From Tetradesmus obliquus (lineage: Eukaryota > Chlorophyta > Chlorophyceae > Sphaeropleales > Scenedesmaceae), in NCBI GenBank assembly GCA_030272155.1, contig CP126200.1:248001-312000 (forward strand): 64,000 nt of DNA, in the 5' to 3' direction. The notes under the pieces are model-generated. The model did not search any database. It saw only the letters and a list, made by a program, of their open reading frames with translations, and was not told the origin of the DNA. Position numbers and translations under genes: made by a program. Of the stretch, positions 22,694-49,567 are shown in pieces (the stretch's first letter is position 1; the number at the start of each line of letters is the position of its first letter).

Positions 22694-23259
22694 GGATGGA
22701 TGGTGTGTGAAGTCACATTTTCTTTTCAAGTCGAATGAAAAAATGATCACGTTTACGGGCTAAAAATTCAAGAGACCAACTTTATTTTTGAATTCCCAGG
22801 CTAAGGGGTGGGCAGTCCTGGCGAAATTTTTTGAAAACGATGACGTCTAGGGCTAAAACTGCGTGAAAGTTCAACGGACCAACATGATTTTTGAATTTCC
22901 AGGCTAGCCGGAAGGCAGTTCTCGTGGACAGAATTTTGAATCATCACGTCTAGGGCTAAAACTGCGTGAAAGTTCAACGGACCAACGCGATTTCTGAAAT
23001 CCCAGGCTAAGGGGGGTCGGGAGCAACGTGATTTTTGAAGTTGCGATTACACACTTCACTCTCAACCTCCCCAGGGAGGCTGCAGCAGCACGTTCAACAT
23101 CCCTTGGGTTGATACGTATCAACCAGAACCCGATTGATACGTATCAACCAGAAACCAGTTGATACGTATCAATCAGAAACCCAGTACATACGCCGTATAT
23201 ACCAGCGAACTCCGCGTAGGTCTCCCGCGTGCTGCCCCCCGCGTATCTCATGCGTGACC
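22694..23259 (+). repeat. Left terminal inverted repeat of the provirus
   Basis: It matches 49004-49567 in reverse complement with only a few differences, for example CACATTTTC against CACATTTTA near the tip. The outer part consists of three degenerate ~90-bp direct repeats sharing 'GGGCTAAAA...TTCAA.(G/A)GACCAAC...CCAGGCTA'. The inner part holds three TTGATACGTATCAA palindromes. The matched region ends at GTGACC 23254-23259. Confidence 0.92.
23109..23172. promoter_or_regulatory. Three TTGATACGTATCAA palindromes in the left TIR
   Basis: Perfect 14-bp palindromes lie at 23109-23122, 23134-23147 and 23159-23172, with an exact 25-bp period joined by CCAGAA(C)CC-like spacers. The same palindrome occurs in the right TIR and in the central divergent promoter (34694-34733), and nowhere else noticed in the window. 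A viral transcription-factor operator is the natural reading; a replication or terminal-protein site is the alternative. Confidence 0.7.
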
Positions 23260-23287
23260 GAAACGCGTGGCTAGCGAGCGCAGATGA

Positions 23288-23295
23288 TATATATA
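23288..23295 (+). promoter_or_regulatory. TATA box of the first viral gene
   Basis: TATATATA lies 107 bp upstream of the ATG at 23403, between the palindrome array and the gene. Confidence 0.6.
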
Positions 23296-23402
23296 GCAGC
23301 TTCACGCATCTGCAGAAATCAGACCACTGCAGAACTCAGACCTGTTCCTGCAATCGCTGACATTGGAATCCGCAGGCTACCTGTTTCACTACTGCTGCTG
23401 CG

Positions 23403-24740
23403 ATGTCTGACCACTCTGCAATGAATAACGAATACCTCCAAAAGCTAGCTGAGCTTACTGCGACAGGATACAAGACGCTTGTGGAGAACAGCGTGATTGA
23501 TCACCCAATGTATGACTCATACGAGTACTTCAACGAGAACACCACGCAGGAGATGCTAGACAAGTTCGGCACAACATCATGGATTGATTCCATCAGGAAG
23601 CACCCGATAGTTAAGAGGCGTTGTCTGGGGCAGGTCGCTGGGGACGAAGACGAGGAGGGCGATGCAGGCGACAGCTGGCTTACACGCCACTTGCCCTGCG
23701 ACCAGAAGGAGCAGCACAATCTCTACATAACATTCGAAGCTGTGAAGGTGCTGCGCATCATCAGGCGAAGCGATGAGAGCAAGTGCCCGGAGGAGCAGCT
23801 GCTCAAGTTCATGACCAAGTCCGCGGCCCGCATCTGTCACGTGCTGATCAACGACCGCACCCCACATGGCGACCGCAAGCGCGTGCAGCCCCTCATGACC
23901 AACGACGAGTTTGCAGTATGGTGGGAGGACCGTGTGAAGGAGGCCGGGAGCAAGGCGCCCACAGCCAAGGTGATCTTGGCCATGAAGAACCTCGCGAAGG
24001 AGCGCATCGAGAAGGGCAGGGCCACACAGCAGGCAGCAGCAGAGAAGGCAGCAGCAGAGCAGGAAGGATCAGACCAAGCAGCAGCTGCAGCAGCAGAGAG
24101 CGAGGTCATGGCACCGCAGGTCGACTTCCCGCTGGACGAAAGGCCCATCAGGGACATCACGCCAGAGCAGCTCGGCAAGGTGACAACGATTGAGACCCCT
24201 GAGGAAGCAGAAGGCCTGCTGCGCGCCACACTGCAGCTGCTGAAGGACAAAGGCATGCTCGTGCCGCGTGTCAACTGGAGTGTGCCGCCCATCTCCGACA
24301 CACCTGCTGGGAAAATGCAGATGAGTGGCATTTGCCAGCAGGTGCAGCTGGAGTGCGCTGCAAAGCTGGAAGAGTACGGATGCGATCCATTCGCCCTGTA
24401 CGAGCTCCCCATCTCCAAGAAGATCAGGATCACAGATGGCTACGAGACGTTCAGGGACCGCGAGCGCAGCTTCTTCTACGCACCGACTGAAGACGCCAAG
24501 AGCCGCATGCTGCTGCACTACGCCATCGACCTGAACGATCACTTCAAGTTGGTTTCGAAGGTCGATGGCGTGGGGCGCAAGCGTGTGCGCCTCGTGATTG
24601 AGGAGGAGGTGAACGGAGCCTGGACGCCGGCTGTCGAGCACACAGAGCGCATGTCCAACACTTACAAGGAGATGCAGAAGGAGTTTAGGTTTGACAGTGG
24701 AGACACAGACTCAGAAGACTCTGATGGAGACATGCCTTGA
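23403..24740 (+). CDS. Uncharacterised viral protein, 445 aa
   Basis: First gene inside the left TIR, alone on the plus strand, starting at ATG 23403 downstream of a TATA box and the palindrome array. The protein is hydrophilic and acidic at its end (SGDTDSEDSDGDMP), with an Ala/Glu/Gln-rich, probably coiled-coil stretch around residues 205-235 that separates two globular-looking halves. I recognise no domain. Position next to a TIR-borne promoter suggests an early or regulatory function, but that is inference. It converges with the penton-like gene, whose stop lies 60 bp away. Confidence 0.8.
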   Translation: MSDHSAMNNEYLQKLAELTATGYKTLVENSVIDHPMYDSYEYFNENTTQEMLDKFGTTSWIDSIRKHPIVKRRCLGQVAGDEDEEGDAGDSWLTRHLPCDQKEQHNLYITFEAVKVLRIIRRSDESKCPEEQLLKFMTKSAARICHVLINDRTPHGDRKRVQPLMTNDEFAVWWEDRVKEAGSKAPTAKVILAMKNLAKERIEKGRATQQAAAEKAAAEQEGSDQAAAAAAESEVMAPQVDFPLDERPIRDITPEQLGKVTTIETPEEAEGLLRATLQLLKDKGMLVPRVNWSVPPISDTPAGKMQMSGICQQVQLECAAKLEEYGCDPFALYELPISKKIRITDGYETFRDRERSFFYAPTEDAKSRMLLHYAIDLNDHFKLVSKVDGVGRKRVRLVIEEEVNGAWTPAVEHTERMSNTYKEMQKEFRFDSGDTDSEDSDGDMP

Positions 24741-24800
24741 TCGACGAGGAGAAGGCCCTATGATGACGATAGCGCTTGTGCCCTTTGTGTAACGAATCTA

Positions 24801-25677
24801 TTATCTCAAATGTTTTGAAACAAACTTGTATCGATTCAGGTCCACGAGCCGGTTCACAGCAGCGAGTGTCTTTTCAGCGAGTGTCAGTTTGGGGTCCTCC
24901 AGTGTGACTGTGTCAACACGCAATGCTATCGTCCAGTCAGGCATATCAGTGACTTCTTCACCATTTGCATGAGTTACACGGAAGCACAATTCATTCAGCT
25001 CGCGCTCAGCTATGAACAGTTGAAACTGGCGGTCAGTGGTGGGCATGTATGTACATACACATGTGTAAAAGTTGTTACACATGTGTAAAAGTCATACGGG
25101 GTCTGCTGAATTGGTACGTTGGCCAGCACGCGCGTCTGTCTCACAACACCTTGGTGATTGGTCAAATTGAATGAGTCCAGTGGGCTCATGCCATCTACTG
25201 CGATACTGAGTGTGTTCACGGGGCTCAAGTCCACAATTGCTGTGCTCCCAAAGTGTTCTCCCTCCATCATGTCTGCAGCTGCAAACCCCAGAATATCGAA
25301 GGAGTCGTTGTGGCAAACCAGCTTGTGACTCTTTTGAAACTCAAAGGAAAAGCCGTCTTTGTAGCCCTCATAGTTCATTCTGACCCCTGGGTACTGCTGT
25401 TGCACTGCACGGCACAGCGCACGGTACGTGTAGTTGCCTGCAGGTCAACCAAGTGTGCTGCACCACTGTCACTTTCCACAAAGGAGAACATGCCATTACC
25501 AACATGCACCTTTTGAAAAGAATAGTAGACACTAAATTGCAGCAGCTGAACCCGAAGACGCTCAGATGGGCGGCACCTCACCATGTTTTGTGGAATGATC
25601 ACACTCCAGCGGTTGGGACTGCCTTGCAACCGCTGCCTGCTGTCAAGAAACAAGGTCTGGGTTTTTATGACCTCCAT
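24801..25677 (-). pseudogene. Penton/minor-capsid-like protein gene with two frame breaks
   Basis: From ATG 25677 the frame encodes an N-terminus with LFLDSRQRLQGSPNRWSVII, resembling the 'nS.dR..G....f.v.l' start of Polinton/PLV penton (minor capsid) proteins that fill the vertices of the icosahedral shell. At about 25440 coding moves to a second frame, used down to about 25090. There a 20-bp tandem duplication (25056-25075 repeated at 25076-25095) forces a third frame down to the stop at 24801. Together the three pieces span about 290 codons, a normal size. Alternatives are sequencing errors or, for the first break, frameshifting; the 20-bp duplication is clearly mutational. The family call is from pattern, not alignment. 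Confidence 0.6.
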
Positions 25678-25838
25678 GCTTGATTAATTGAGAGGTTTTT
25701 TGCCAGCCATGGTGACAACACTTGCTACCGCCTGAGCTTAGCCAGCACAATGCTTGGGGTCCTTTGAGTCACTCTACGCAGCTGGCCAAACACAACACTG
25801 CGCTTGCGGGATATCGGGTCAGGCATTTGACTGTCCTA
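25678..25838. other. Short intergenic gap in the virion module
   Basis: 161 bp between the penton-like gene and the next minus-strand gene. It may hold the promoter of the penton-like gene. Confidence 0.5.
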
Positions 25839-26375
25839 TTAAGACTTGCCATAAAAAAGTGGCTGAGTGCTAGGGAAAATCTCCAGCACAAGCACCCAAC
25901 CACATGTTGGCTGATCAAGGGCAGTGGCCAAGTTCCCATCAAGGGCGGTGCTGATGGTCACGGTGATTTGCCCATTGCTCCATGCAGGAACATTGAGCAC
26001 TGCACCCGTGTCAATTGCAGGCGCGGTGTAGCTGTAGCCGGGGCTGAACAACAGAGTGCCACACGGTCTTGAACCATGTTGGCTATCGTACACGTTGTTG
26101 AAGTACTGATCAATTGCAACACCAAGCACAGCTCCTTGCATGCCAATGTTGGCTGCATCGTGAATTGCAAACTGCACAGCTCTCAGCATGTAGGAGGTGT
26201 CTTTGTCAAGCGAGAAGGGCGCAGCCATGTTGAAAGTAGCTGCACTGGCTGTACCGGAAACACGGTTGCTGCTGCGCAGAGTGACTAGGTAAGATTGGGG
26301 GCGTTCCTTGGTGCGTGATTTGGAAACAAAACTGACTGGATGATCAGCTTGCTGGCGTGTCGACACCGTATTCAT
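25839..26375 (-). CDS. Candidate virion structural protein, 178 aa
   Basis: Starts at ATG 26375 and overlaps the 3' end of the upstream gene by 32 bp. Contains SYLVTLRSSNRVSG followed by alternating hydrophobic stretches (YMLRAVQFAIHD, GQITVTISTALDG, WVLVLEIFPS) that suggest beta strands, so a single jelly-roll or decoration protein is plausible. It sits between the packaging ATPase and the penton-like gene, among capsid genes. No family is recognised with certainty. Confidence 0.65.
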   Translation of the reverse strand: MNTVSTRQQADHPVSFVSKSRTKERPQSYLVTLRSSNRVSGTASAATFNMAAPFSLDKDTSYMLRAVQFAIHDAANIGMQGAVLGVAIDQYFNNVYDSQHGSRPCGTLLFSPGYSYTAPAIDTGAVLNVPAWSNGQITVTISTALDGNLATALDQPTCGWVLVLEIFPSTQPLFYGKS

Positions 26376-26622
26376 CCTGAGTCTTGAAGTTAGCTGAGAT
26401 AATCTTTTCGTACTCGGGTGTGCCTTGCTTAATCAAAGTCAAAGTTGTGCTGATGACTTCGCCATCCGTAGGGGTGTGCGGGTCTCCTTTGAACCCCTTG
26501 AACACTGCCGGATCATGGCAGTACAAGCGCAGCACGCTTTCAAGCACGTGCATGGGGATGTCAGGGAACTCGCTGACCATTGATTGCAGGTACCTTGCTT
26601 TTTTGGCGTCTGACAGCGTCAT
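26344..26622 (-). CDS. Small uncharacterised viral protein, 92 aa
   Basis: From ATG 26622 (MTLSDAKKARYLQSM). It overlaps the end of the packaging ATPase by 62 bp and the start of the next gene by 32 bp, implying a tightly packed transcript. Mostly helical and charged; ends DEYGVDTPAS. No domain is recognised. Confidence 0.6.
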   Translation of the reverse strand: MTLSDAKKARYLQSMVSEFPDIPMHVLESVLRLYCHDPAVFKGFKGDPHTPTDGEVISTTLTLIKQGTPEYEKIISANFKTQDEYGVDTPAS

Positions 26623-27544
26623 TTTCTGTAACAAGAGATTTTTTTGGCAGCAGGTACGTGTTCCATCCGGCACGGTAGCGTTTCGTGGGGTCGGTGGTGG
26701 TCATGTCAACAAAGAGGAAACCGTGATCGCGCTCGGTGGCGGTGTTGTACGCCTCAAGGAAGGTTTCAGGAGGTTCTCTGCCGCTTGCAAGCTCGTCTGC
26801 CATTTGCTGAATCATCTTTTCTTGAGGGCAACGCCACAGCAAGGCACCTGTGCAGTTCTCACGGATTGCCCTGGGGACCGACCCTGATGCCCGCCAGCTC
26901 TGAACGCAGATCCACAGCGTGAGTCCGAAGCCATCTCCAATGTGTCTGTGTCGGATGGCGGTGTTGGTGAGCAGGGATTTGCTTCCAGCTGAGCTGAGCA
27001 GCTTGGTGCCCTGTGCGTCGTCAATGACCACGTGGCACACCGCCTGTGTCTCTTTCCCGTACTTGTACTTTGGCTCTTCATCTGTATCAAGCAACCCAAG
27101 CCGGCTGGCTCGCATGAGCAGGCCATTGTCTAAGTCATGGACGTCTTTGCCGCGCTGCAATTGCGCATGCAGCCTATGGTAGACTTCCTTGGCCTCCCTG
27201 TACTGCCGAAATTCAGCAGCCATAGAAGTGACCTCACTGATTACAGCCTGCAGCGCGTCGTTGTCGGGGTGTTCGTACTGGTCTTCTGGTTTTACACCGA
27301 GCTCATCCAGATAGCACTTGTTGCTAGCGCAAGTAGAGCTGAGCCAGAAAATCCGATCTGCGCAGCCGGCGCGCTTCATTTGACGGAGCATTGAAGTCAG
27401 GGCAACCCCCTTGCCTGCGCCGCGGTGTCCTGCGAGAATGAACAGGCCATGCAGCTTGGGCATATCAGGCGGGGTGGGAATTGAGAATGCGGATTTGCCC
27501 TTGGGCAACCATGTGGGGAACTTGCCGATTGTCTGTGACTCCAT
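26561..27544 (-). CDS. Genome-packaging ATPase (FtsK/HerA superfamily, A32-like), 327 aa
   Basis: P-loop AGHRGAGKG at residues 38-46, followed by a hydrophobic strand and helix (VALTSMLRQMKRAG). The Walker B strand CHVVIDDAQG is at about 170-179. A downstream Gln lies in WICVQSW, like the sensor region of A32 ATPases. It would drive DNA into preformed capsids at one vertex. Start chosen at MESQTIG (27544); an in-frame extension upstream uses a non-ATG codon. It is one of the core Polinton/PLV morphogenesis genes and lies in the same minus-strand block as the capsid genes. Confidence 0.85.
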   Translation of the reverse strand: MESQTIGKFPTWLPKGKSAFSIPTPPDMPKLHGLFILAGHRGAGKGVALTSMLRQMKRAGCADRIFWLSSTCASNKCYLDELGVKPEDQYEHPDNDALQAVISEVTSMAAEFRQYREAKEVYHRLHAQLQRGKDVHDLDNGLLMRASRLGLLDTDEEPKYKYGKETQAVCHVVIDDAQGTKLLSSAGSKSLLTNTAIRHRHIGDGFGLTLWICVQSWRASGSVPRAIRENCTGALLWRCPQEKMIQQMADELASGREPPETFLEAYNTATERDHGFLFVDMTTTDPTKRYRAGWNTYLLPKKSLVTENDAVRRQKSKVPAINGQRVP

Positions 27545-27571: not shown

Positions 27572-28162
27572 TCAAGGCCCGCGCAGTTGCTGCATCACCA
27601 TACTTAGTATTTCATCATTAACTTTCTGAGCTACGCGTCCTTTGCAGAGATTGATGTAGTCGTCGGCTGCTGGCGCTTGCTGCACAGGCGTAGGCACAGG
27701 AAAGGCAGTGAGTGCGGAGTTGACGTACTTCTGCAGCTTGGATTTGATCCAAAGCTTGCTTTCCGGGTCAAGACGCATCTTTGCTGCATTTGTCGCCTCC
27801 ACTTTTGGTGCCTCAGGAATTTCTGAGACACGGACAGCAACCGGCCCGGGGGCTTCCACCGCTACCCCGAGCGTGTCGAGGGCATTTCGTGCCTTGCGTT
27901 CTTTGCAGAGTTTTGAGCGTGTTTCGCGAGCTTTGGCCAGCGTGGCTAGCTTCTTTTCGCGCAGAGTTGCTGCCTTCATTCTCGCCTCAGTCAAATTCAC
28001 AGGAGACTCTGTGGAAGTTTCATTTGCGTCACTTGTGAAAGTCACTGATGCATCACTGGCGTCTGTTGCACCACTGGACTCGTCCCCGGTGCATGCGTGA
28101 GCGGCCAGTTCCTTCTTGTTGCGAGCTATGTAGCCGCAGTTGCTGCAGATCTGAAGAGTCAT
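27572..28162 (-). CDS. Zinc-finger viral protein, 196 aa
   Basis: The N-terminus has a C2HC-type finger: C6 and C9 (ICSNCG), then H22 and C24 (AAHAC). A Ser/Thr/Asp-rich linker follows, then a basic, probably coiled-coil segment (AATLREKKLATLAKARETRSKLCKERKARN) and a C-terminal helical part. Probably nucleic-acid binding. It lies 27 bp from the packaging ATPase start. A role in packaging or late regulation is inference. Confidence 0.7.
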   Translation of the reverse strand: MTLQICSNCGYIARNKKELAAHACTGDESSGATDASDASVTFTSDANETSTESPVNLTEARMKAATLREKKLATLAKARETRSKLCKERKARNALDTLGVAVEAPGPVAVRVSEIPEAPKVEATNAAKMRLDPESKLWIKSKLQKYVNSALTAFPVPTPVQQAPAADDYINLCKGRVAQKVNDEILSMVMQQLRGP

Positions 28163-28189: not shown

Positions 28190-28510
28190 TCACTGAATCA
28201 AAAAAGGAACTGGTTCATGACGCAGAACAGCAGCCTGCGGTATTTTTAGGGAGCCGTCATTTTTCCACAGTAAACTGCTTGGATTGTGCTCTTTGCCCGC
28301 TGGGTACTGCAGGCGATTGTGCGTGACGCCAAAATAATTGGCAGGTTGGCTGAAGATGGGGTTCATGTACAGTGAACAGAACTGTGCCCTGTCCTGTGTG
28401 ACTGTGAGGTCTGTTTGGTAAGCCTTTTTTGTCAAAGTACTTGTCATTGCTTTGTCATTGCGCGGTGCAGCAGGGTCCTGCATGAATCGCCTCCATCCGG
28501 TTGTATTCAT
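28190..28510 (-). CDS. Small uncharacterised viral protein, 106 aa
   Basis: From ATG 28510 (MNTTGWRRFMQDP), 13 bp after the stop of the preceding minus-strand gene. Contains LYMNPIFSQPANYFGVTHNRLQYPAG. No domain is recognised. Location suggests a minor virion or assembly protein. Confidence 0.6.
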   Translation of the reverse strand: MNTTGWRRFMQDPAAPRNDKAMTSTLTKKAYQTDLTVTQDRAQFCSLYMNPIFSQPANYFGVTHNRLQYPAGKEHNPSSLLWKNDGSLKIPQAAVLRHEPVPFLIQ

Positions 28511-28523: not shown

Positions 28524-28904
28524 CTATGACAATGCAACAAAAAATCTGCCCGAATGAATCCTAACACCCGGAGCTACACCATGCTGCTGCAATGTAAACG
28601 CCATACTCCTTGTGTCGCGTTTGTATACGCCACGAACTGCGTAGCCGTACGTTTTGACAATTTGGCGCAAGACAGTCAGCGCGCGCCTGTGTGTGTGCAT
28701 CTCACTGACGTAAACTGACTTGCAAGGAGCATACAAGCCTACCAGAGCATCCCGTATTTCTGCAAGTTTCTGCAAGGTGTCAAGGCGGTGCATATCATTG
28801 TAACCAAATGAGTGGTAGTCTCGGAGTGATGTCAATCCGAAACACGCCAGCACTTGGTGCAAAACACGTGAGGAGGGCTTTTCCAAAAATAGCTGGTTAA
28901 TCAT
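28524..28904 (-). CDS. Small uncharacterised viral protein, 126 aa
   Basis: From ATG 28904 (MINQLFLEKPSSRVLHQVL). Lies 21 bp after the capsid gene stop in the same direction, so probably co-transcribed with it. Predicted mostly alpha-helical and basic (HTHRRALTVLRQIVKTYGYAVRGVYKRD). No family is recognised. Confidence 0.6.
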   Translation of the reverse strand: MINQLFLEKPSSRVLHQVLACFGLTSLRDYHSFGYNDMHRLDTLQKLAEIRDALVGLYAPCKSVYVSEMHTHRRALTVLRQIVKTYGYAVRGVYKRDTRSMAFTLQQHGVAPGVRIHSGRFFVALS

Positions 28905-28925: not shown

Positions 28926-29243
28926 CTACGCTATCACCTCGCATTGCTTGTAGGGCGCGATCCTGAGCACGCTCGTGCACTTGACCAGTAGGACCTTCTG
29001 ATAGCCCGTCGTCCCTGTGATATCCGTTTTCCAAGTAATTCCGGCCGAGTTGCCAAGGGTGTTGATCCCTGACTTCAAGCGAAGCTCAGGCTCGGCATTC
29101 GGGAACTGCAGCGGAATCACGTGGATGAACCCCTCGGCTTGATAATTGTCCAGCGAATTGATCCACTTCTCGCACTGGTCGTCTCCGCGCAGCACGCCGA
29201 AGGCATCCGCAGTCTGCACCATTGCCTCAGTAGCTGTTGCCCG
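28926..29243 (-). pseudogene. Major capsid protein, C-terminal fragment (cut by transposon)
   Basis: Coding from the insertion point to the stop at 28926, about 105 codons including QTADAFGVLRGDDQCEKWIN and VLLVKCTSVLRIAP. It is in phase with the N-terminal fragment (32408-33334) if the CACTA element and one CCG duplication are ignored, giving a gene of about 413 codons. On its own the fragment has no start and would not be made. Confidence 0.8.
29241..29243. repeat. 3-bp target duplication (CCG) of CACTA copy 1
   Basis: CCG at 29241-29243 precedes CACTA and recurs at 32408-32410 after the right end. Three bases is the usual duplication for CACTA (En/Spm) elements. Confidence 0.85.
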
Positions 29244-32200
29244 CACTATGGTCACCAGCAAGTCCAGTTGCAGGTCAAGGCACGTCCAGTTGCACACTAT
29301 GCAACTGGACGTCACATGTGGCACGTCAAGTTGGGACTGGACGTGGGCGACGTCCAGTTGACAACTGGACGTCGAGAAAGCAAACTGGACGTGCAAGTGG
29401 ACTCTGTTACAGTGCGCGAAACTGCAATAAAGGGTATCAAATAATGAATATATGATGCAAGAAACGAGTTTTGAAGCCAGCACGACGACTCCGAAAACTC
29501 AAGTTGGCGCTGTCGACCTCCTGGTGACTTGTCACTGCAGCTGCAACTGCTAAGGTGGTTGAATGCAACCAAGCAGCCAGCTGCTGCAATACAACACAAA
29601 CAAAATGCAGGACAAACAACACGACCAGTAGAGCAGCAGTGCGCTGACCGCATTGCCCTCCCCATCATGTCTCTGGCAGTGACATGCGCTGATGTGCCAA
29701 CCACCTGTGCAGACATAAACTGCTACAACGCTGTGAGCTGAGGTGCTCTTGACCACCATGAAGATCCGCCCTGCATTTGCGAATGCAACGCTGGTGCCTG
29801 TACCCTGTTTCTGCCAAGGCTGCAGCATCTGTTCCATGGATGGCTGGACCGTGGCATCAGTTGCCAAGTTGCGCCCCTGCGGTGGCGCGCAGAGACACAG
29901 CAACATTCTTTGTGACTCGCTGGCAGCAGAGTGTGGCATTTGTTAACAGCGACAGTGTTTGACAGGACAGTTTTTGAAATGCATGCGTGCAATGCCCATC
30001 ACCTGCAGCTGCTAATCAAGAAACACTGAACACTGCCTCAGTGCAATTCCGAATCTGGTGTGGCGACCACGCAGCTGACACAACCCGGCTACCGGCGCAG
30101 CTGCGCAGCTTGTAAACAATCCTGTGTTCAATGGAAGGCGCTGCTAGCAGCGCTACAGCAGCGCTGCTGTACAAAGATCCTGGTGCAGCACGGCCTCATG
30201 ATTGCGGGCTACTCCTACAGCGCCAAGACCAGCATCTGGTGCATCCCACATTGTTAGCATAAGTTGCTTGAGCCTTTCGCCTAGGGTGCTCACCAGAAGT
30301 GCGCCAGCCGCATCATGCTGCCATTCTAGTGACGCTGCATGTGTGCCCTGCCAGCAGGGCACCGTGCCCTCTGGTGGCACCAGAGAGAAACCTCGTGCCG
30401 AGAGGTCAGCCCAATGCGGCACTGCCTGCTGCTGCACTTGATCAGGCAGTGCAATGCACCCTGCAATCACGTACCGAACCATGCAGGTGGTTTCTGCTGG
30501 ATGACTTGTGTGAACAAGTGCAGCACTGCGGTGACTGCATGCATGCCAGCAGGTGAGGTGTGTTTGCAGCGCTCTGCAGGCAGTGTTGTACACTTTGGCA
30601 AAGCACTCTGCAAAAAGCAAATCACGGCTCTCTTTCCGTACTTGAAGAAGATGCAACAAGGAAGATCAACGCCCGGTGTTGTTGAGCACAGCAGTGTACA
30701 GCAGCACCTGGCATGCATGGCACCCGAGTGGTGTTCAGAATCCAATGTCCATGCGTCTGCCTCGCCGTACTACTTACTGCTGGTTGTTGTAGTGGAGGAT
30801 GACCCTTACTGTATGCCTGCCAACCATGGCGCGTCCCAGGCGTGGCGTGGCAATTCCTCTGCATTGCACACCACAGCAAAGCAAACTGTCAGCAGTTGTA
30901 GCAGCTGTGTGGGGGAGGAACATGACTGCAACAGCGCCAAAGCAATTTTGCTGGATGTCCTGCAGGTTGATGAACATAAGTCTAGAGGTTGCGCTGTGTG
31001 GCCCAAAAGGTGCAGTGGGTGCTGCATTTGACTACGATCCTTTCCCAGGGAGTCCTCCTGACATACCTTAGACACAAGTCTGATATTCAGGTGATTTGTT
31101 GGAGCCTGCGTGCAGCGACAGCAGCGCTGGTGACCACATATGTGGTGGCGATGCATAGCTGGACCTGGTGAAGACCGATGGGCATCCAGCACTCTGACGA
31201 CAAGGCTGACACTGCTGTCACTGCGAACAGTAGTTCACTCACGGTGTCCGTGCCGCAGCCGTTTTAAACGGCTGCATTGCTGCGGCTGTTGGCAACAGCT
31301 TCACATGTAGCAGCAGCTGCTGCCTGCAAACTGCTCTGTTCCTTCTGCAGCTGGTCCGCCTGTTGCCCATCGTGCCATGAAGGGTTGGCACGTAGTTGCA
31401 AGAGAACCAAGAGCAGCTTCTCACGCATAAGCCTGCGTTCAGCAACCTGCAGGATCCATCATACAGCTGGCTACTGCTGCACATACTTCTGCTGCTCGAT
31501 CGGCCAGCACCCGCATGAATCTGGAGCACGTAGATAACTGGATGGTGTTTTGTCTAATGACCGTGTTGATGATAAAGAACTGCTCGCGGACGCTTGCGCG
31601 AGCTTGCAGTATGTTGCAGCAGCATCAAAGCTACAGAGTGCATCACGTCTCAGGAAAATACCCCTAATATGCATCAAAGTGGCTGTCATAGCTCAGTTGA
31701 ATTGCGTGCTTGCCCTCAGACCATTATTTACCTCGCCACCTGTCTTCGTGTTTGTACTGTAACATATGTAGCTGTTGCTGTTAGCAAACCCCAAAAAGCA
31801 CAAGCTAACCAGCAGAAATGATGCAAACGAAATGAAAACGTTTGATCAGACACAGATGCGCGCTCGCACGTCTATCTCTGTGACATGGGCTCAGCGTAGG
31901 GGCCGTGGCTGTGGACACGATGCTTTGTTCGCGCGCAAAATCCCTGAGTCGCCTTTTTAGGCAACTTAATATACCTGAAATGTGGCAGCGGGCGTGTCAG
32001 CGACCGCCGTGATGGTAACTTGATGCGGTGACAAACCTGCCTGCACGTTGAAGCACGTTCTAGCCCATTGTACTAAACGCTTTTGCAGTTAGGCATCTTT
32101 TTTGAGTTGTGTTGAAGGAGACGACGCTGCTTCGGTCCTGACAAACCCTACGGCATTTCAAGCAGGAACAGGCAGCCTAATCAGCGAAATACATGTTCTT

Positions 32201-39611: not shown

Positions 39612-39636
39612 GGGGGAAGAGCGTTTAACCATTCAG
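39586..39636 (+). repeat. 51-bp direct repeat, copy 1 (partner 40127-40177)
   Basis: From CACCTGGCACCGGTGAAGCA to AACCATTCAG, with one mismatch to 40127-40177. Each copy covers the final codons and stop of one gene and the leader of the next. Confidence 0.9.
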
Positions 39637-39651
39637 CCTACTGTGAACATC

Positions 39652-40152
39652 ATGCGCGGAGTCCATTATTTGATCGCATTCTACAGCAAGGTCATCCGTG
39701 ACGCCTGGACCCGGGGTCGCTTCCGGGGCTTTGAAGCGGAGATGTCAAAATTGATATATTGGCGTGCTGCACTCAACGCTTTGGAGTTTCCATCGTCACA
39801 AGTGCTGTGTAGCGCTCACCGTACCTTTTTTATCCCTTTGTGCTTGGTTGCTGTACCACAATCCTTTTCAGATGGACAACAAGTGAACGTTTTGAAAGTT
39901 GATGCATTCTTGAAGACGGTTGAGGGAATCGAGCCCCCCGGCAGCAGAACAAATGCAACTTGGGCTTTCCACAACTTCCACTATCAGGATTTAGATGAAG
40001 CACTTGAGAAGTGGCTGGGTGAGAGCAGCTCATTGCTATATATCCCGCCAACATCGACGGGCAAGCGCGCCAGAATCGGTATGTACCATCAGCAGATTGT
40101 GCAGAATCTAAGAGCCGACATCGAGCCACCTGGCACCGGTGAAGCACTCTAA
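39652..40152 (+). CDS. Uncharacterised viral protein, 166 aa
   Basis: From ATG 39652 (MRGVHYLIAFYSKVIRDAW). The frame is open upstream, but this ATG lies just after the repeated leader, as in the following gene, and avoids overlap. Contains FYSKVIRDAWTRGRFRGFE and a C-terminal half with ATWAFHNFHYQDLDEALEKWLG. Ends in PGTGEAL like the preceding protein. No domain is recognised. Confidence 0.6.
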   Translation: MRGVHYLIAFYSKVIRDAWTRGRFRGFEAEMSKLIYWRAALNALEFPSSQVLCSAHRTFFIPLCLVAVPQSFSDGQQVNVLKVDAFLKTVEGIEPPGSRTNATWAFHNFHYQDLDEALEKWLGESSSLLYIPPTSTGKRARIGMYHQQIVQNLRADIEPPGTGEAL

Positions 40153-41416: not shown

Positions 41417-44219
41417 GCTCGGCATCGAGGAGGAGGTGCGGTCCATCTTCGGCATTCAGTTCCATCTCTCCAAGAAGTTCCTGAAGCTGCCGGTGTCCCG
41501 GCCCAACCCTGCCCTCAACAAATGGTTCACGCAGCACAACTCACGACACGACGTGCATGTGGGCATGCTGGAGGGCTGGCCTTCGAATGACGCGAGGCGC
41601 ATGGACTTTGCGAAGGGCATCGCGGCATGCTATGACATGAAGAGGGCTCAACCCTTCGTCATGCACGAGCCAACGTCAGCCTGGATGTGCTTTCAGCATA
41701 ATGACACTCCGATGCCATACGACGGCACCCCAGTCGACGAGCTGAAGAATGGCTTGTACCTCACCGAGACGGAGGACCGCACGATTGTGACGGGCAACGG
41801 CATCTACGATCGTGAGCGGTTGCAGTACGCACAGCAACAAGAGATCAAGTTCGAGATCAAGGCAATGGCCATCCCTTCCTCATCGGCACCAAAGGACGCT
41901 TTCCATGACTACCAACACGCTGTGATTGCAGCCTGCTACACCGGCAACCTTCCCGACGGCATCACCCCGCAAGCCATGCAAGCGGTCATGAAGAAGCTTC
42001 TTGTCATGCCCATCGGGAACCTGGGCAGGGTGGACGAGAAGAAGTTCACAAAGATACACATCAGCGAAAACAGGAGCGATGCATGGGACTACATCAATGA
42101 AGCCATCGCGTCAGGCTCGTACGACCGCCCCAAGTACTCCGAGTTGAACCACAAGGGCCGCACGTTCTACGTGTATGGCATGATAGAGGTGCAGGAGCTT
42201 GCAGAGCACAACGCTGCCATGTACTTGCAGATCCTCAACCAGGCGGCTCTCGCCACCCACAAGGCCTATGAGGGCATCGGTGGCGTCCTGAAAGGCGTCA
42301 AGGTGGACTCCTTCATCGTCAGGAACCCCGTAAACAGGCCAAGCGCAGATCTGAACGAGCAGGCGGACCTGATCGATGTCAGCAGGGTGCAAGATGTCTC
42401 CAACGACCCTTCTGTGAACACACACGTCAGAGAAGAGCTGCGGCATTGGGGCAAGGTCAAGACAGAGGCGGTGCCCTTCAACGCGGGGGACTTCCATGAC
42501 TGTGCCTTGGACACGGACTTTGAGTACCTGCCGACACAATGGGTGGACCACCTTGACATCTTCGACAGCTCGGATGCAGCTGAGCAGATCCTGAAGCTGG
42601 ACAACCCCAGGGCGCTGATCATTGGCCCCGCTGGCTTCGGCAAGACATACGTGGCGAAGATGATCTGCGAGCACTACTCCGGGCCACAGTATCCCGGCGG
42701 GCCCATCATGCTCGCGCCAACACACGCAGCGTCCAACAATCTGGAGGGCGTCACCATCCACCGGTTCGTGGGCGCCAACATCTACACGCAGACCATCGGC
42801 CGCAGGAACCTCACCAAGTATCTGCGGCAGGCGAGCGCACTCATCGTGGACGAGATCACTATGTGCGGCGAGTATCTGTGGTTCTGCCTAAGTCTCATCA
42901 ACCAGATCCGCCCGGACATGCCGGTGTACCTCTTTGGAGGCCCCGGTCAGCTGAGTCCCGTCGAGAGCACCAAGCACGCCGGATATGACTACATGGAGCA
43001 CCCTACGCTGAAGGCGCTCGCCGGCAACAACAGGATCACGCTGACCGTCAACCACCGCACGAATGACCCGCGGCTGCAGGACCTCAACGCGCGCTTGCTG
43101 GACAAGCAGTCCCCCGTCAGCCCGGCTGCTGCAATGGTCAAGAGTCTGCCGACACACGACGCAGCGGAGGACGTGCAGATGCACATCGCCATGACCAATG
43201 CCATGGTCTTTCACATCAACGACACGTGCATGCAGAAGTACAAGCCAGCAAGCGCAGTTGAGGTGCCCGCTGACTGTGAGGACAGCCGCACACAGAAAGT
43301 ATGGTTGTATGTTGGTATGCCTGTGTACAGCTGCGTCACGCTGAACAAGAAGGGAGGCAAGGAGAATGCCGCACACCTGAAGACGCTGACGGTGATTCAG
43401 CAGCTGCGCGCAAAGGTGGAGATTCAGAACAACGAGTTCCATGTCATCACACGCGTGGACGTCGGAAAAGGCACGTTCAGCACACAGAGCAAGCGCACAG
43501 ACTTGGAGAAGACGTGGCAAATCACCGACTTCCACAAGTACTTCAGGCCAGCGTACTGCTTCACCGTGCACAAGGTGCAGGGACTGACGCTCACCATGAA
43601 TTTCGTAATATGGGAGGCACAGCACATGACTCGGGAGCATGCGTACACTGCGGTTTCGCGCGCTCGGACAATCGACCAGATCTCGCTGGGTGAGACGCCC
43701 GTGGACTTCTTCACAGCTGCGTATGAGCATGTGAAGAAGAACCTGCAGGCCATGATCAACCACTACCGCGCGGGAGACATCGCAGCCAGTTGGGAGCCAT
43801 GCGACTGGACTGTGGGACTTCTGTACGAGAAGCTGGTGCGCACTCAAGGGGAGATCTGCCCACACTGTGGAGAGCAGATGAAGATGCGCAACTTCTTCAA
43901 GTCAGGCGGCACCCCGGACCCCCTGATGGTCACCCTGGACCGCATCGATAACACGACCGGCCACACAATGGTCAACACGTTCGGCGCGCATCTGAAGTGC
44001 AACATCTCACGCAATGGGAACCAAGACAAGCACCTCCAGGCTGAGAACCCCGACAAGGAAGCCTTCCTCGTCATGTATCCTGGACAAGCTCAGGAGGTCG
44101 ACTGCAGCGCGCAGCCAGCACCAGACGTGGCAGATGGGGATTGGGCTGAGGCAGAAGAAGAGTCAGGGGCGCCAGATAATAATACAAGCACACTGCAAGA
44201 CGCGCTGCCGTTCATGTGA
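41229..44219 (+). CDS. Polymerase-like domain fused to SF1 helicase and C-terminal HNH domain, 996 aa
   Basis: Counted from ATG 41229; the frame is open upstream to 40953 and may continue the preceding gene. Residues about 120-365 follow the order of a family-B palm: RRMDFAKGIAACYD (Asp126, motif A-like), KNGLYLTETED, MKKLLVMPIGNLGR, then ILNQAALATHKAYEGIGG and VKVDSF (Asp360, motif C-like). The helicase follows: Walker A GPAGFGKT (466-473), DEITM (541-545), GGPGQLSPV, VNHRTNDP, TVHKVQGLTL and EHAYTAVSRART, as in Pif1/RecD-type SF1 helicases. The C-terminus (about 875-928) has CPHCG, LDRIDNTTGH and HLKCNISRN, an HNH-like zinc module. It is the replication protein of the provirus. The helicase is certain; the polymerase reading is inference. 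Confidence 0.8.
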   Translation: MTSADVWTFIFNKAEKRGCLPEITLSPDGAPAVARFYTDDTRTKVDDYMFNQDYRVVQLIASRLGIEEEVRSIFGIQFHLSKKFLKLPVSRPNPALNKWFTQHNSRHDVHVGMLEGWPSNDARRMDFAKGIAACYDMKRAQPFVMHEPTSAWMCFQHNDTPMPYDGTPVDELKNGLYLTETEDRTIVTGNGIYDRERLQYAQQQEIKFEIKAMAIPSSSAPKDAFHDYQHAVIAACYTGNLPDGITPQAMQAVMKKLLVMPIGNLGRVDEKKFTKIHISENRSDAWDYINEAIASGSYDRPKYSELNHKGRTFYVYGMIEVQELAEHNAAMYLQILNQAALATHKAYEGIGGVLKGVKVDSFIVRNPVNRPSADLNEQADLIDVSRVQDVSNDPSVNTHVREELRHWGKVKTEAVPFNAGDFHDCALDTDFEYLPTQWVDHLDIFDSSDAAEQILKLDNPRALIIGPAGFGKTYVAKMICEHYSGPQYPGGPIMLAPTHAASNNLEGVTIHRFVGANIYTQTIGRRNLTKYLRQASALIVDEITMCGEYLWFCLSLINQIRPDMPVYLFGGPGQLSPVESTKHAGYDYMEHPTLKALAGNNRITLTVNHRTNDPRLQDLNARLLDKQSPVSPAAAMVKSLPTHDAAEDVQMHIAMTNAMVFHINDTCMQKYKPASAVEVPADCEDSRTQKVWLYVGMPVYSCVTLNKKGGKENAAHLKTLTVIQQLRAKVEIQNNEFHVITRVDVGKGTFSTQSKRTDLEKTWQITDFHKYFRPAYCFTVHKVQGLTLTMNFVIWEAQHMTREHAYTAVSRARTIDQISLGETPVDFFTAAYEHVKKNLQAMINHYRAGDIAASWEPCDWTVGLLYEKLVRTQGEICPHCGEQMKMRNFFKSGGTPDPLMVTLDRIDNTTGHTMVNTFGAHLKCNISRNGNQDKHLQAENPDKEAFLVMYPGQAQEVDCSAQPAPDVADGDWAEAEEESGAPDNNTSTLQDALPFM

Positions 44220-44220
44220 G

Positions 44221-45666
44221 ATGGATTTTCAAGAGAAGCTGGCAAACATGATGAAGGAGAACCCCGGCTTGGAGCTGCTCAGCAAGGGCAAGTTGCTGCA
44301 ACACGTGAGGTCACAAGGCCTCAAAGTGACGAAAAAGGCATCTGATGCCGCATTTGAAGAGAGTGGCAATGTTGTGCACGAGCTCTACAATCAATCGACC
44401 AAGAAATTTGGGTTTGGTCGCCTTGTAGCACCTCCATACAGCTTCATGATTGATACGATCAGGATGGACCGCTTCAAAAGGCAAAACAACGAAAAGACAA
44501 GGTTCTTGTTGTTGGTTGAAATTTGCTCCAGAAAAGCTTTTGCGTACGTGCTGCCCAGTGAAAATGTTGGAGACGTCATTGTTGCCTACAAAAAGTTTCT
44601 TCAAGAGGCAGGCCATCAGGTCACCTTTCTGAAGGGGGACGATTTCTTCAGCGCCAAACAGTTCAGACAGTTCAACGAACAAAAAAACATACAAGTGTAC
44701 ACAGTCGTCAGCAAGGACGAACACGTCACGACCGGAAACCCGCTAGGCATCCTCGACCGCTGTGTTCGGACTTTGCGCGGCATGTTTGAAAAGCGGATAC
44801 ATCTGAAGGATGATGCCAGGTGGACCCAGTGGCTACACGAGGTGATCTCGCAGTACAATGACACGCCTCACACGAAGCTCCGCGGTGCAACCCCTGCCGA
44901 AGTATATGGCGACATTGGCGCGATGACCAAGGTCTGGGAAGAGGACGTTGCGTACAACAAGACTCTAAACCAGCAGATAGGTCACCTGTTCAAGCCTGAT
45001 CAATACGTACGTCTCAAGCTTGCAAAGGGAGTTTTTGAAAAGGGGGCGACTCAAACGTGGTCCAGTGAAATCTACCAGGTCGTCACTGTAAAGGGGTCGC
45101 GCGTACAGCTCAAAACATACCCCGCAGGTGACTTGGTGGCTCGTGAAGCCAAACTGAATGAACTGCTTCGAGTGAGCAAGCCTCGCACTACCGCGCAGCC
45201 CGCTGCCATCACAAAGGCCAACACGCAATCCCGCCAGGACAGACGCATGCGCAAAGAGGGCCTGCCAGAGCCACCGGTGGAGAAAGAGCGAGCAATCGTG
45301 GCCAAACACATCGTGGACATGCTGAAAGTGGGTCAACTGGCGGTGCTGGATGTCGAAGGAATTGATGACGGCAATGTTCTGACCTTCACAAAAGATGGCA
45401 AAACAGGCTACGTGTATGCTGGCATCGTAACTCAAGTCAACAGTAAGAGACTGTACATGCAGTTGTTCGAGAGGGCGACAGCCAGCAGCAGCGACCTCGC
45501 ACAGAAAAAGCTGAAGCTGAGCGAAACTCGATACGCCATCGACAACATGTCCAACGCAGACGCGCTGCTGTACGCGGGGGATCCCCCTCGCATCCGTTCT
45601 GGTCAGACGACATCTCTGCCAGCAGCCGTGGTGAAGCACGTGCAAGAAGAGTACGTTTTCTCTTGA
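44221..45666 (+). CDS. rve-family integrase of the provirus, 481 aa
   Basis: ATG 44221 follows the helicase stop by one base. The rve core has SFMIDTIRMDRF (Asp78) and TFLKGDDFFSAKQF (Asp140/141). A third position in GNPLGILDRCVRTLRG holds Asp179 where most integrases have Glu (VERFNRTLK-like). A 'YNDTPHTKLRGATPAEVYGD' segment follows, as in retroviral and Polinton integrases, then an SH3-like domain (YVRLKLAKGVFEKGATQTWSSEIYQVV). The extra ~150-residue C-terminal extension is of unknown fold. It cuts and joins the TIR ends and would produce the 6-bp duplication seen. Position beside the right TIR is typical. Confidence 0.85.
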   Translation: MDFQEKLANMMKENPGLELLSKGKLLQHVRSQGLKVTKKASDAAFEESGNVVHELYNQSTKKFGFGRLVAPPYSFMIDTIRMDRFKRQNNEKTRFLLLVEICSRKAFAYVLPSENVGDVIVAYKKFLQEAGHQVTFLKGDDFFSAKQFRQFNEQKNIQVYTVVSKDEHVTTGNPLGILDRCVRTLRGMFEKRIHLKDDARWTQWLHEVISQYNDTPHTKLRGATPAEVYGDIGAMTKVWEEDVAYNKTLNQQIGHLFKPDQYVRLKLAKGVFEKGATQTWSSEIYQVVTVKGSRVQLKTYPAGDLVAREAKLNELLRVSKPRTTAQPAAITKANTQSRQDRRMRKEGLPEPPVEKERAIVAKHIVDMLKVGQLAVLDVEGIDDGNVLTFTKDGKTGYVYAGIVTQVNSKRLYMQLFERATASSSDLAQKKLKLSETRYAIDNMSNADALLYAGDPPRIRSGQTTSLPAAVVKHVQEEYVFS

Positions 45667-45701
45667 TTCCAGTACAGCGAAGATACGCGCGTTTCGGTCA
45701 C

Positions 45702-45826
45702 AGGTCAGACGTCTCAAAAAACAACAACTTTTGGTACATATACCACAAATCGTCCATAAGTGGCACTTGTAGCTCAGTCGGTAGAGCGCCCGGTATACAG
45801 CCGGGAGGTTGCGGGTGTGAGAGGTC
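45702..45826 (+). other. tRNA-like insert between integrase and right TIR
   Basis: A ~120-bp piece contains a tRNA 5' half: GGCACTT-GT-AGCTCAGTCGGTAGAGC, then a perfect 5-bp anticodon stem CCCGG/CCGGG around TATACAG (formal anticodon TAC, but A rather than U at position 33), then AGGTTGCGGG. The T arm is not completed. GGTCAC flanks the insert at 45696-45701 and again across 45823-45826 plus 49007-49008 once CACTA copy 2 is ignored. Both sides also match the left TIR and its continuation (GTGACCGAAACGCG), so the piece was probably inserted into a longer TIR. It is a tRNA-derived insert or decayed tRNA, not a working gene. Confidence 0.45.
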
Positions 45827-48800
45827 CACTATGGTCACCAGGCTGTCAAGTTGCACGTCAAGGCACGTCAAGGCACGTCAAGTTGCCACAAACCGCGTCA
45901 AGTTGGCGGGTATGCGTGTCCAGATGCACATCCAGTCGTCATGCAACTGGATTTGAGCTGCTGCTGGGAGGGCAAATGTTCACTGAAGGCCCGATTGCCG
46001 CAGTAGACAACACACACAGATGAAACAAAAGTCAAGAACATGTATTTCGCTGGTTAGGCTGCCTGTTCCTGCTTGAAATGCCGTAGGGTTTGTCAGGACC
46101 GAAGCAGCGTCGTCCTCTAACACAACTCAAAAAAGATGCCTAACTGCAAAAGCGTTTAGGACAATGGGCTAGAACGTGCTTCAACGTGCAGGCAGGCTTG
46201 TCACCGCATCAAGGTACCATCACGGGCGGTCGCTGACACGCCCGCTGCCACAGTTCAGGTATAATAAGTTGCCTAAAAAGGCGACTCAGGGATTTTGTGC
46301 GCGAACAAAGCATCGTGTCCACAGCCACGGCCCCTACGCTGAGCCCATGTCACAGAGATAGACGTGCGAGCGCGCATCTGTGTCTGATCAAACGTTTTCA
46401 TTTCGTTTGCATCATTTCTGCTGGTTAGCTTGTGCTTTTTGGGGTTTGCTAACAGCAACAGCTACATATGTTACAGTACAAACACGAAGACAGGTGGCGA
46501 GGTAAATAATGGTCTGAGGGCAAGCACGCAATTCAACTGAGCTATGACAGCCACTTTGATGCATATTAGGGGTATTTTCCTGAGACGTGATGCACTCTGT
46601 AGCTTTGATGCTGCTGCAACATACTGCAAGCTCGCGCAAGCGTCCGCGAGCAGTTCTTTATCATCAACACGGTCATTAGACAAAACACCATCCAGTTATC
46701 TACGTGCTCCAGATTCATGCGGGTGCTGGCCGATCGAGCAGCAGAAGTATGTGCAGCAGTAGCCAGCTGTATGATGGATCCTGCAGGTTGCTGAACGCAG
46801 GCTTATGCGTGAGAAGCTGCTCTTGGTTCTCTTGCAACTACGTGCCAACCCTTCATGGCACGATGGGCAACAGGCGGACCAGCTGCAGAAGGAACAGAGC
46901 AGTTTGCAGGCAGCAGCTGCTGCTACATGTGAAGCTGTTGCCAACAGCCGCAGCAATGCAGCCGTTTAAAACGGCTGCGGCACGGACACCGTGAGTGAAC
47001 TACTGTTCGCAGTGACAGCAGTGTCAGCCTTGTCGTCAGAGTGCTGGATGCCCATCGGTCCTCACCAGGTCCAGCTATGCATCGCCACTACATATGTGGT
47101 CACCAGCGCTGCTGTCGCTGCACGCAGGCTCCAACAAACCACCTGAATATCAGACTTGTGTCTAAGGTATGTCAGGAGGACTCCCTGGGAAAGGATCGTA
47201 GTCAGATGCAGCACCCACTGCACCTTTTGGGCCACACATCGCAACCTCTAGAATTATGTTCATCAACCTGCAGGACATCCAGCAAAATTGCTTTGGCGCT
47301 GTTGCAGTCATGTTCCTCCCCCACACAGCTGCTACAACTGCTGCCAGTTTGCTTTGCTGTGGTGTGCAATGCAGAGGAATTGCCACGCCACGCCTGGGAC
47401 GCGCCATGGTTGGCAGGCATACAGTAAGGGTCATCCTCCACTACAACAACCAGCAGTAAGTAGTACGGCGAGGCAGACGCATGGACATTGGATTCTGAAC
47501 ACCACTCGGGTGCCATGCATGCCAGGTGCTGCTGTACACTGCTGTGCTCAACAACACCGGGCGTTGATCTTCCTTGTTGCATCTTCTTCAAGTACGGAAA
47601 GAGAGCCGTGATTTGCTTTTTGCAGAGTGCTTTGCCAAAGTGTACAACACTGCCTGCAGAGCGCTGCAAACACACCTCACCTGCTGGCATGCATGCAGTC
47701 ACCGCAGTGCTGCACTTGTTCACACAAGTCATCCAGCAGAAACCACCTGCATGGTTCGGTACGTGATTGCAGGGTGCGTTGCACTGCCTGATCAAGTGCA
47801 GCAGCAGGCAGTGCCGCATTGGGCTGACCTCTCGGCACGAGGTTTCTCTCTGGTGCCACCAGAGGGCACGGTGCCCTGCTGGCAGGGCACACATGCAGCG
47901 TCACTAGAATGGCAGCATGATGCGGCTGGCGCACTTCCTGGTGAGCACCCTAGGCGAAAGGCTCAAGCAACTTATGCTAACAATGTGGGATGCACCAGAT
48001 GCTGGTCTTGGCGCTGTAGGAGTAGCCCGCAATCATGAGGCCGTGCTGCACCAGGATCTTTGTACAGCAGCGCTGCTGTAGCGCTGCTAGCAGCGCCTTC
48101 TCATTGAACACAGGATTGTTTACAAGCTGCGCAGCTGCGCCGGTAGCCGGGTTGTGTCAGCTGCGTGGTCGCCACACCAGATTCGGAATTGCACTGAGGC
48201 AGTGTTCAGTGTTTCTTGATTAGCAGCTGCAGGTGATGGGCATTGCACGCATGCATTTCAAAAACTGTCCTGTCAAACACTGTCGCTGTCAACAAATGCC
48301 ACACTCTGCTGCCAGCGAGTCACAAAGAATGTTGCTGTGTCTCTGCGCGCCACCGCAGGGGCGCAACTTGGCAACTGATGCCACGGTCCAGCCATCCATG
48401 GAACAAATGCTGCAGCCTTGGCAGAAACAGGGTACAGGCACCAGCGCTGCATTCGCAAATGCAGGGCGGATCTTCATGGTGGTCAAGAGCACCTCAGCTC
48501 ACAGAGTTGTAGCAGTTTATGTCTGCACAGGTGGTTGGCACATCAGCGCATGTCACTGCCAGAGACATGATGGGGAGGGCAATGCGGTCAGCGCACTGCT
48601 GCTCTACTGGTCGTGTTGTTTGTCCTGCACTGTTTGCACTGTTTGTTTGTGTTGTATTGCAGCAGCTGGCTGCTTGGTTGCATTCAACCACCTTAGCAGT
48701 TGCAGCTGCAGTGACAAGTCACCAGGAGGTCGACAGCGCCAACTCGAGTTCTCGGAGTCGTCGTGCTGGCTTCAAATACTCGTTTCTTGCATCATATATT

Positions 48801-49003
48801 CATTATTTGATACCCTTTATTGCAGTTTCGCGCACTGTAACAGAGTCCAGTTGCACGTCCAGTTTGCTTTCTCGACGTCCAGTTGTCAACTGGACGTCGC
48901 CCACGTCCAGTCCCAACTTGACGTGCCACATGTGACGTCCAGTTGCATGGTGTGCAACTGGACGTGCCTTGACCTGCAACTGGACTTGCTGGTGACCATA
49001 GTG
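45827..49003 (-). mobile_element. CACTA-type transposon, copy 2 (inverted relative to copy 1)
   Basis: 3177 bp, nearly identical to the reverse complement of 29244-32407, with the same 15-bp ends and a different 3-bp duplication, GTC (45824-45826 and 49004-49006). It was therefore an independent insertion. Small differences include one extra C near 47937, which breaks the exon-like frame, and a length change near 48640. It separates the integrase from its TIR by more than 3 kb. Confidence 0.88.
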
Positions 49004-49567
49004 GTCACGCATGAGATACGCGGGGGGCAGCACGCGGGAGACCTACGCGGAGTTCGCTGGTATATACGGCGTATGTACTGCGTTTCTGATTGATACGTAT
49101 CAACTGGTTTCTGGTTGATACGTATCAATCGGGTTCTGGTTGATACGTATCAACCCAAGGGATGTTGAACGTGCTGCTGCAGCCTCCCTGGGGAGGTTGA
49201 GAGTGAAGTGTGTAATCGCAACTTCAAAAATCACGTTGCTCCCGACCCCCCTTAGCCTGGGATTTCAGAAATCGCGTTGGTCCGTTGAACTTTCACGCAG
49301 TTTTAGCCCTAGACGTGATGATTCAAAATTCTGTCCACGAGAACTGCCTTCCGGCTAGCCTGGAAATTCAAAAATCATGTTGGTCCGTTGAACTTTCACG
49401 CAGTTTTAGCCCTAGACGTGATCGTTTTCAAAAAAATTCGCAGGACTGCCCACCCCTTAGCCTGGGAATTCAAAAATTAAGTTGGTCTCTTGAATTTTTA
49501 GCCCGTAAACGTGATCATTTTTTCATTCGACTTGAAAATAAAATGTGACTTCACACACCATCCATCC
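49004..49567 (-). repeat. Right terminal inverted repeat of the provirus
   Basis: Reverse complement of 22694-23259, beginning right after CACTA copy 2 and ending CCATCCATCC. The palindromes at 49090-49103, 49115-49128 and 49140-49153 mirror those on the left with the same 25-bp period. Confidence 0.92.
49090..49153. promoter_or_regulatory. Three TTGATACGTATCAA palindromes in the right TIR
   Basis: Mirror image of the left array, oriented inward. No gene starts immediately inside, because the integrase reads toward this end and CACTA copy 2 intervenes. Confidence 0.65.

Follow-up and report, generated by a model that had tools for sequence, protein, structure and literature searches.

The sequence analysed here, a window of 64,000 nucleotides from chromosome C10 of the green alga Tetradesmus obliquus (C10:248001-312000; assembly of 104.66 Mb in 17 contigs), carries an inserted element of 26.9 kb at positions 22694-49567. 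We conclude that this element is very probably an integrated Polinton-like virus (PLV), which has since decayed through two landings of a CACTA transposon and through breaks in its reading frames, and whose lineage exchanges its replication and fibre genes against a more conserved capsid module. An earlier note on this DNA had proposed an integrated PLV with exact ends. Both the identity and the ends are supported by the terminal repeats, the target site duplication, the fold of the packaging ATPase, labelled homologues and Tlr1-like motifs; the element is not a single intact unit, since it contains two transposon copies and several broken frames.

Termini and size of the integrated element

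The element is bounded by long terminal inverted repeats (TIRs) defined by alignment, the left one spanning 566 bp (22694-23259, + strand) and the right one 565 bp as aligned (49003-49567, − strand), with the first base of the latter shared with a transposon end. The two repeats match at 560 of 565 aligned bases, with 5 mismatches and 1 gap event. Directly outside them, the sequence ATGCTC is present as a target site duplication (TSD) at 22688-22693 and 49568-49573, and the host flanks read ...CTGATGCTC | element | ATGCTCGTG.... The repeats of about 565 bp and the ATGCTC duplication described earlier were thereby borne out. A 6-bp TSD, as used to define Polintons, is present both here and at a sister element on chromosome C1 (CACGCT). 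Of the 26.9 kb, 6.3 kb are non-viral, and subtraction of the two CACTA copies leaves a virus of about 20.5 kb, which together with the 565-bp TIRs agrees with the PLV genome size range of 18-28 kb given in excerpts of PMC4642659. Within both TIRs, a unit of 103 bp is repeated in tandem in diverged form (22763-22968 and 49253-49422).

Packaging and virion genes

The FtsK/HerA-type genome-packaging ATPase expected of a PLV is encoded at 26561-27544 (− strand, 327 aa) and was identified through both homologues and a structure model (pLDDT 82.7), for which Foldseek and VIA-align returned matches to FtsK and to B204 of STIV/STIV2. Its nearest named relative is a protein labelled FtsK from 'Monoraphidium MELD virus', with 65% identity.

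The major capsid protein gene is present in two parts, both on the − strand and severed by a CACTA insertion. The N-terminal part (32408-33334, 309 aa) was assigned from homologues, whereas the C-terminal part (28926-29222) was recognized by homology, its product being 58% identical to residues 318-415 of the capsid homologue P0016. A capsid role is suggested by one homologue labelled as a capsid protein, and in a profile comparison the sequence also matched a second PLV capsid candidate. The capsid homologue MNEG_5273 of Monoraphidium neglectum is 45% identical and may correspond to the capsid gene of the M. neglectum PLV reported by Yutin et al. (2015). The gene set listed in the earlier note therefore holds broadly, except that its capsid gene at 32408-33334 is the N-terminal part only. 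The profile and structure searches that it had called for linked the ATPase to packaging ATPases by structure, and the sequence searches of Pfam and the Protein Data Bank (PDB) yielded only chance matches for the capsid.

Two further virion genes can be proposed. A putative penton-like (minor capsid) gene at 24801-25677 (− strand) is distributed over three overlapping open reading frames (ORFs; 25375-25677, 25010-25378 and 24801-25082), for which a Pfam scan gave no meaningful match. A repetitive protein of 1496 aa (34833-39323, + strand) reads as fibre-like. PHROGs and Pfam offered little for the capsid, the ATPase or the small ORFs, and a PDB sequence search with the ATPase profile gave only chance matches.

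Replication and integration genes

The replication gene (40205-44219, + strand) appears to encode a Tlr1-like polymerase-helicase, recognized through Pfam, PHROGs and motifs, in which a vOTU domain, a protein-primed PolB palm, an SF1 helicase and an HNH end follow one another, as the definition of Tlr1-like helicases (vOTU, palm, SF1 helicase, HNH or GIY-YIG end) specifies. The SF1 helicase part is backed by Pfam, PHROGs and PDB sequence searches, and the vOTU (Cys, His), palm and HNH parts are read from motifs and alignment. A Polinton in the strict sense would have a full protein-primed PolB with exonuclease; the domain order here was derived from motifs and Pfam, with no search aimed at an exonuclease. 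The frame is broken between ORFs 40205-41416 and 40974-44219. A protein search of limited sensitivity retrieved four proteins, three of them from T. obliquus, including OEZ86_005103, which is identical to the window polymerase (100% over 99% of the query). An ORF of 550 aa (44014-45666, + strand) encodes a predicted rve-type integrase, assigned from a weak Pfam rve match and alignment.

The integrase and the 6-bp TSD, together with the three related loci in the genome, would also suit a true Polinton (Maverick), that is, a self-synthesising transposon rather than a virus of the PLV kind. We regard this reading as improbable. The replication protein reads as a Tlr1-like palm-helicase fusion, and the nearest named relative is the MELD virus. 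A Pfam scan of 18 ORF products found no match to a Ulp1-type or other protease, a result compatible with a divergent protease. Furthermore, the capsid and ATPase genes show ratios of nonsynonymous to synonymous substitution rates (dN/dS) of 0.08-0.09 between the C10 and C1 elements, indicating that these genes were used. According to excerpts of PMC7805220, Polintons and PLVs are in any case not sharply delimited from each other.

CACTA transposons within the provirus

Within the PLV lies a second inverted pair, overlooked in the earlier note, which proved to be a host transposon of the CACTA (EnSpm) type. Copy 1 (29244-32407, + strand, 3164 bp, TSD CCG) interrupts the capsid gene, and copy 2 (45827-49003, − strand, 3177 bp, TSD GTC) occupies the inner edge of the right TIR; the two differ by 28 mismatches in 3162 aligned bases and by 7 gap events. 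Their position inside the element, inverted and with one arm adjoining the TIR, might suggest an inner repeat or isomerisation module of the virus itself, but this is scarcely credible given the following evidence. Nine near-full copies with 98-100% identity occur on six contigs (C2, C9, C10, C11, C13 and C14), seven of them outside the virus (two on C9 and one on each of the others), and six of these seven have equal 3-bp TSDs, the remaining one being unscored. The ends carry the CACTA...TAGTG termini with a short TIR (CACTATGGTCACCAG / CTGGTGACCATAGTG), and all tested words of 8-9 bases that repeat subterminally fall within the terminal 250 bp. Among ten insertions inspected at both ends, including a related element in a PLV remnant on C12, equal 3-bp flanks were found in all nine that could be scored; the tenth (C14:3367655) has altered ends. 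Additionally, the C1 sister lacks the pair and is continuous at that place, and copy 1 splits the capsid gene into its N-terminal and C-terminal parts, 32408-33334 and 28926-29222.

At the insertion point itself the C1 sequence is unbroken (window 29243|32409 versus L010 8655|8656), and the capsid sequence also runs through, by reading, in the predicted protein P0018 (OEZ85_000042) of another strain, so that an uninterrupted form of the capsid gene exists elsewhere. No transposase match was found in the five scanned ORF products (129-285 aa) that overlap the two copies, so that the CACTA element is probably non-autonomous. A related element of 9 kb with ORFs of its own was also noted.

Under uniform insertion, the probability that two of nine near-full copies would fall into one provirus of 20.5 kb is about 1.4e-6; for such clustering anywhere in the PLV sequence, estimated at 165 kb in total, it is 9e-5, a value that was likewise calculated for uniform insertion and after the pattern had been seen. 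The clustering, noticed post hoc, may reflect local hopping or relaxed selection.

The split capsid gene, together with the frame breaks in the penton-like gene (three overlapping ORFs) and the polymerase-helicase gene (two ORFs), shows that the C10 element is a decayed provirus. The C1 copy is damaged in other ways, with frame breaks in the capsid C part and the penton-like gene and a stop in its counterpart of 39457-40152. Two readings of the damage were rejected: the penton frame breaks are not common to both copies, one being confined to C10 and the other place differing in sequence, and a stop in the C1 integrase match is no lesion, as it precedes the start of an open ORF of 515 aa.

Related loci and mosaic evolution

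At least nine PLV loci, assigned to two families (three in family A, six in family B), were found in T. obliquus; this number is a lower bound, as only the best candidates were scored. Family A comprises the window element, the sister element at C1:6644696-6664336 (TSD CACGCT) and a rearranged remnant of 5.7 kb at C12:818027-823702 (L012). The integrase of the C12 remnant is split by a different CACTA-type element of about 2.7 kb (TSD AAG), and no target duplication was found in the flanks of the remnant.

The C10 and C1 elements share the same gene order, but their similarity is uneven. For most capsid-side proteins the identity is 91-98% (the penton pieces and the 92-aa ORF lie at 87-96%, and 21 residues of the capsid C part adjoining the C1 frame break at 67%), whereas it is 65-85% for the polymerase, integrase, fibre and 39457-40152 proteins. 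Across 11 gene stretches compared for dN/dS, the six on the capsid side show 91-98% identity and a synonymous divergence (dS) of 0.08-0.24, compared with 66-86% and 0.37-0.63 in the five others (replication and fibre). The dN/dS ratio is lowest in the ATPase (0.08) and the capsid N part (0.09), followed by the integrase and the N part of the fibre (0.16 each) and by 28190-28510 (0.22). Two polymerase stretches give 0.30 and 0.42, and the ORFs 28524-28904, 25839-26375 and 33397-34638 give 0.35-0.45; only the N part of 39457-40152 reaches 0.70, the other ten of 11 stretches lying at 0.08-0.45. These values indicate that most genes were under purifying selection after the divergence, as would be the case for replicating viruses.

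The shared gene order and the 91-98% identity of most capsid-side proteins could also be explained if the two elements were host-side duplicates of one insertion, their differences having arisen by decay. This explanation is very unlikely, as the target duplications differ (ATGCTC versus CACGCT), the dS of the two gene sets falls into separate ranges, and dN/dS values of 0.08-0.45 in ten of 11 stretches are unlike the outcome of decay alone. Judged from the sequence comparison, the C10 and C1 elements instead look like recombinants.

Family B repeats this mosaic pattern. Its loci lie on C4, C5, C14, C15 and C13, with part of one at C10:168-178 kb. The C4 and C10 members share a polymerase-integrase segment of 4.9 kb at 98.7% identity; compared with the corresponding segment of C14, its identity is 63-74%. 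On the capsid side, by contrast, C4 and C14 agree at 92-99%. Family B elements measure about 21-22 kb, with TIRs of 174-215 bp (L023-L025, C14:2638269-2659954; L013-L015, C4; L016-L019, C15; L020-L022, C5), and 5-bp duplications (GAAAG, ACATA and GATGA) accompany three of the four, with none at the fourth, on C5. Capsid matches are free of stops at three of five loci (C14, C15 and C4) and contain stops on C5 and C13; the ATPase matches in the C4, C14 and C15 copies are stop-free.

Several side observations concern these loci. The C15 element (C15:1144336-1171506, L016-L019) is inserted in a unit of a tandem repeat of about 2.9 kb, the adjoining unit representing the empty site. In family B, the integrase occupies the N-terminal part of a protein of 954 aa (L023:5094-7958), which continues in a long C-terminal extension. 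All four aligned integrases, drawn from both families (window 44014-45666; L009, L021 and L023), carry D at the third catalytic position. The C14 element encodes a 221-aa protein (L025:899-1564, − strand) that matches glycosyl hydrolase family 134 (E 1.2e-6, 29.5 bits, cut-off 27) and may act on the cell wall as a mannanase during entry or release. The public gene models P0015, P0018 and P0021 list PLV genes as host genes; in P0018 the capsid is fused with the product of 33397-34638, while P0021 omits the vOTU His region.

Evidence weighing against the assignment

A number of results weigh against the reading of the C10 element as a decayed PLV. Searches of the capsid against Pfam and PDB sequences returned only chance matches, the double jelly-roll fold of the capsid is putative, and the penton and fibre assignments are tentative. 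When capsid and ATPase were compared with IMG/VR as single sequences and alignments, no relative was found, at limited sensitivity, and an extracellular form is accordingly hypothetical. The integrase matches Pfam rve weakly (E 0.0033, 18.1 bits, cut-off 32.6), its PDB sequence search returned two T-cell receptor chains alone, by chance, and its third catalytic residue is D where E is usual (D, D, D versus D, D, E). For the transposon, the genome contained no match to the TNP2-type transposase PF02992, a search in which the controls were likewise silent.

Other reading frames and neighbouring sequences

The remaining ORFs of the element have no assigned function. On the + strand, the first of these (23403-24740, 445 aa, ORF list) found only itself in the host genome search and had no match in the C1 stretches examined, while residues 1-79 of the 231-aa product of 39457-40152 (ORF list) match C1 at 66%. 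On the − strand lie ORFs of 178 aa (25839-26375), 92 aa (26344-26622), 106 aa (28190-28510) and 126 aa (28524-28904), whose products are 92%, 88%, 98% and 91% identical in C1, respectively, as well as an ORF of 196 aa (27572-28162, ORF list) with an N-terminal Cys/His pattern seen by reading alone. A product of 413 aa (33397-34638, − strand; ORF list, Pfam) is proline-rich with a basic N terminus and might be a core or minor virion protein.

Beyond copy 2, an insert of 121 bp assigned to the right TIR (45702-45822, + strand) is flanked on both sides, by reading, by GGTCAC and contains a tRNA-like stretch (45763-45819) that scores 28.7 bits in Rfam against a cut-off of 29 and lacks a normal T arm; a genome search with the insert returned only itself. 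No tRNA gene was reported in the window by ARAGORN, nor by Rfam at gathering score. A stretch of about 14 bases past this insert matches the left TIR by reading, implying that the original TIR was slightly longer. Outside the element, an MlaD domain (Pfam E 4.9e-8) was found in ORF 20360-21112, part of a host gene whose end, by reading, is about 0.6 kb to the left.

Relation to known elements

Monoraphidium and Tetradesmus belong to the same algal order. An integrated PLV of M. neglectum was already included in the paper that founded the PLV group (Yutin et al. 2015, PMC4642659); it is the sole one with an RVE integrase among the PLVs of that paper, and its protein-primed DNA polymerase falls into Polinton group 2. 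The C10 element resembles this virus and the Monoraphidium MELD virus in its ATPase (65% identical), its capsid homologue (45%) and its predicted RVE integrase; it differs from the M. neglectum PLV in that its polymerase is fused to an SF1 helicase and in the CACTA insertions, which belong to the C10 copy. With this relative described and the nearest named ATPase coming from Monoraphidium, the suggestion drawn in the earlier note from unrecognised genes, that this may be an undescribed lineage, is not supported.

Tlr1-like helicases have been described in Tlr1 of Tetrahymena and in other PLVs and transpovirons (Krupovic et al. 2024, PMC11071308, excerpts), and Tlr1-type fusions are also discussed in excerpts of PMC12721341. 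Tlr1-type elements as presented in the former combine an RVE integrase with a vOTU-palm-SF1 helicase ending in HNH or GIY-YIG, and the C10 element, with its predicted integrase, resembles them in this respect, a likeness read from motifs. It differs in that it resides in a green alga, carries the HNH end and has its nearest capsid and ATPase relatives in Monoraphidium.

Nested retrotransposons are known from cryptophyte PLVs, and Ngaro in Cafeteria virophages and Copia in a Guillardia PLV are cited (PMC12220804, excerpts); the word CACTA is absent from the main text of that paper. As in those cases, a mobile host element resides in an endogenous small DNA virus, sometimes within a coding gene. 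Here, in contrast to the retrotransposons, it is a CACTA DNA transposon, present twice in one provirus, with a related element in the C12 remnant. In a single search of the open-licence PMC literature that paired the terms, we found no account of a CACTA DNA transposon in a PLV, and a search of the same literature for PLVs in Tetradesmus likewise gave none. The element adds one unexceptional member to an established group of viruses; new here are the double CACTA insertion, the two-family PLV inventory of T. obliquus and the mosaic.

Proposed history and implications

Combining these data, we propose the following course of events. In its free state the virus would replicate by means of the Tlr1-like polymerase-helicase, whose motifs are observed, and the FtsK/HerA-type ATPase would package the DNA into a capsid, presumably made of a major and a minor capsid protein and bearing a long fibre. 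An rve-type integrase would join this linear DNA, with TIRs at its ends, to the chromosome at cuts staggered by 6 bp, of which the TSD is the observed trace. After integration, the capsid gene was hit by one host CACTA element and the right TIR by another; frame breaks are present in the penton-like gene and in that of the polymerase. The lineage, on this view, evolves by exchanging its replication and fibre module against the more conserved capsid module.

A broader view is that T. obliquus maintains several endogenous PLVs as a pool, that recombination within it repeatedly pairs a conserved capsid module with replication-integration modules that can be exchanged, and that host CACTA elements hit this pool far more often than its share of the genome would lead one to expect. 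We consider this speculative and rather unlikely; if true, cut-and-paste transposons would be a main route by which proviruses are inactivated. The viral genes modelled as host genes allow the annotation to be corrected. With these findings, T. obliquus, a green alga grown for biomass, joins the known hosts of PLVs, and its C10 and C1 elements provide a within-genome example of module exchange between PLVs.

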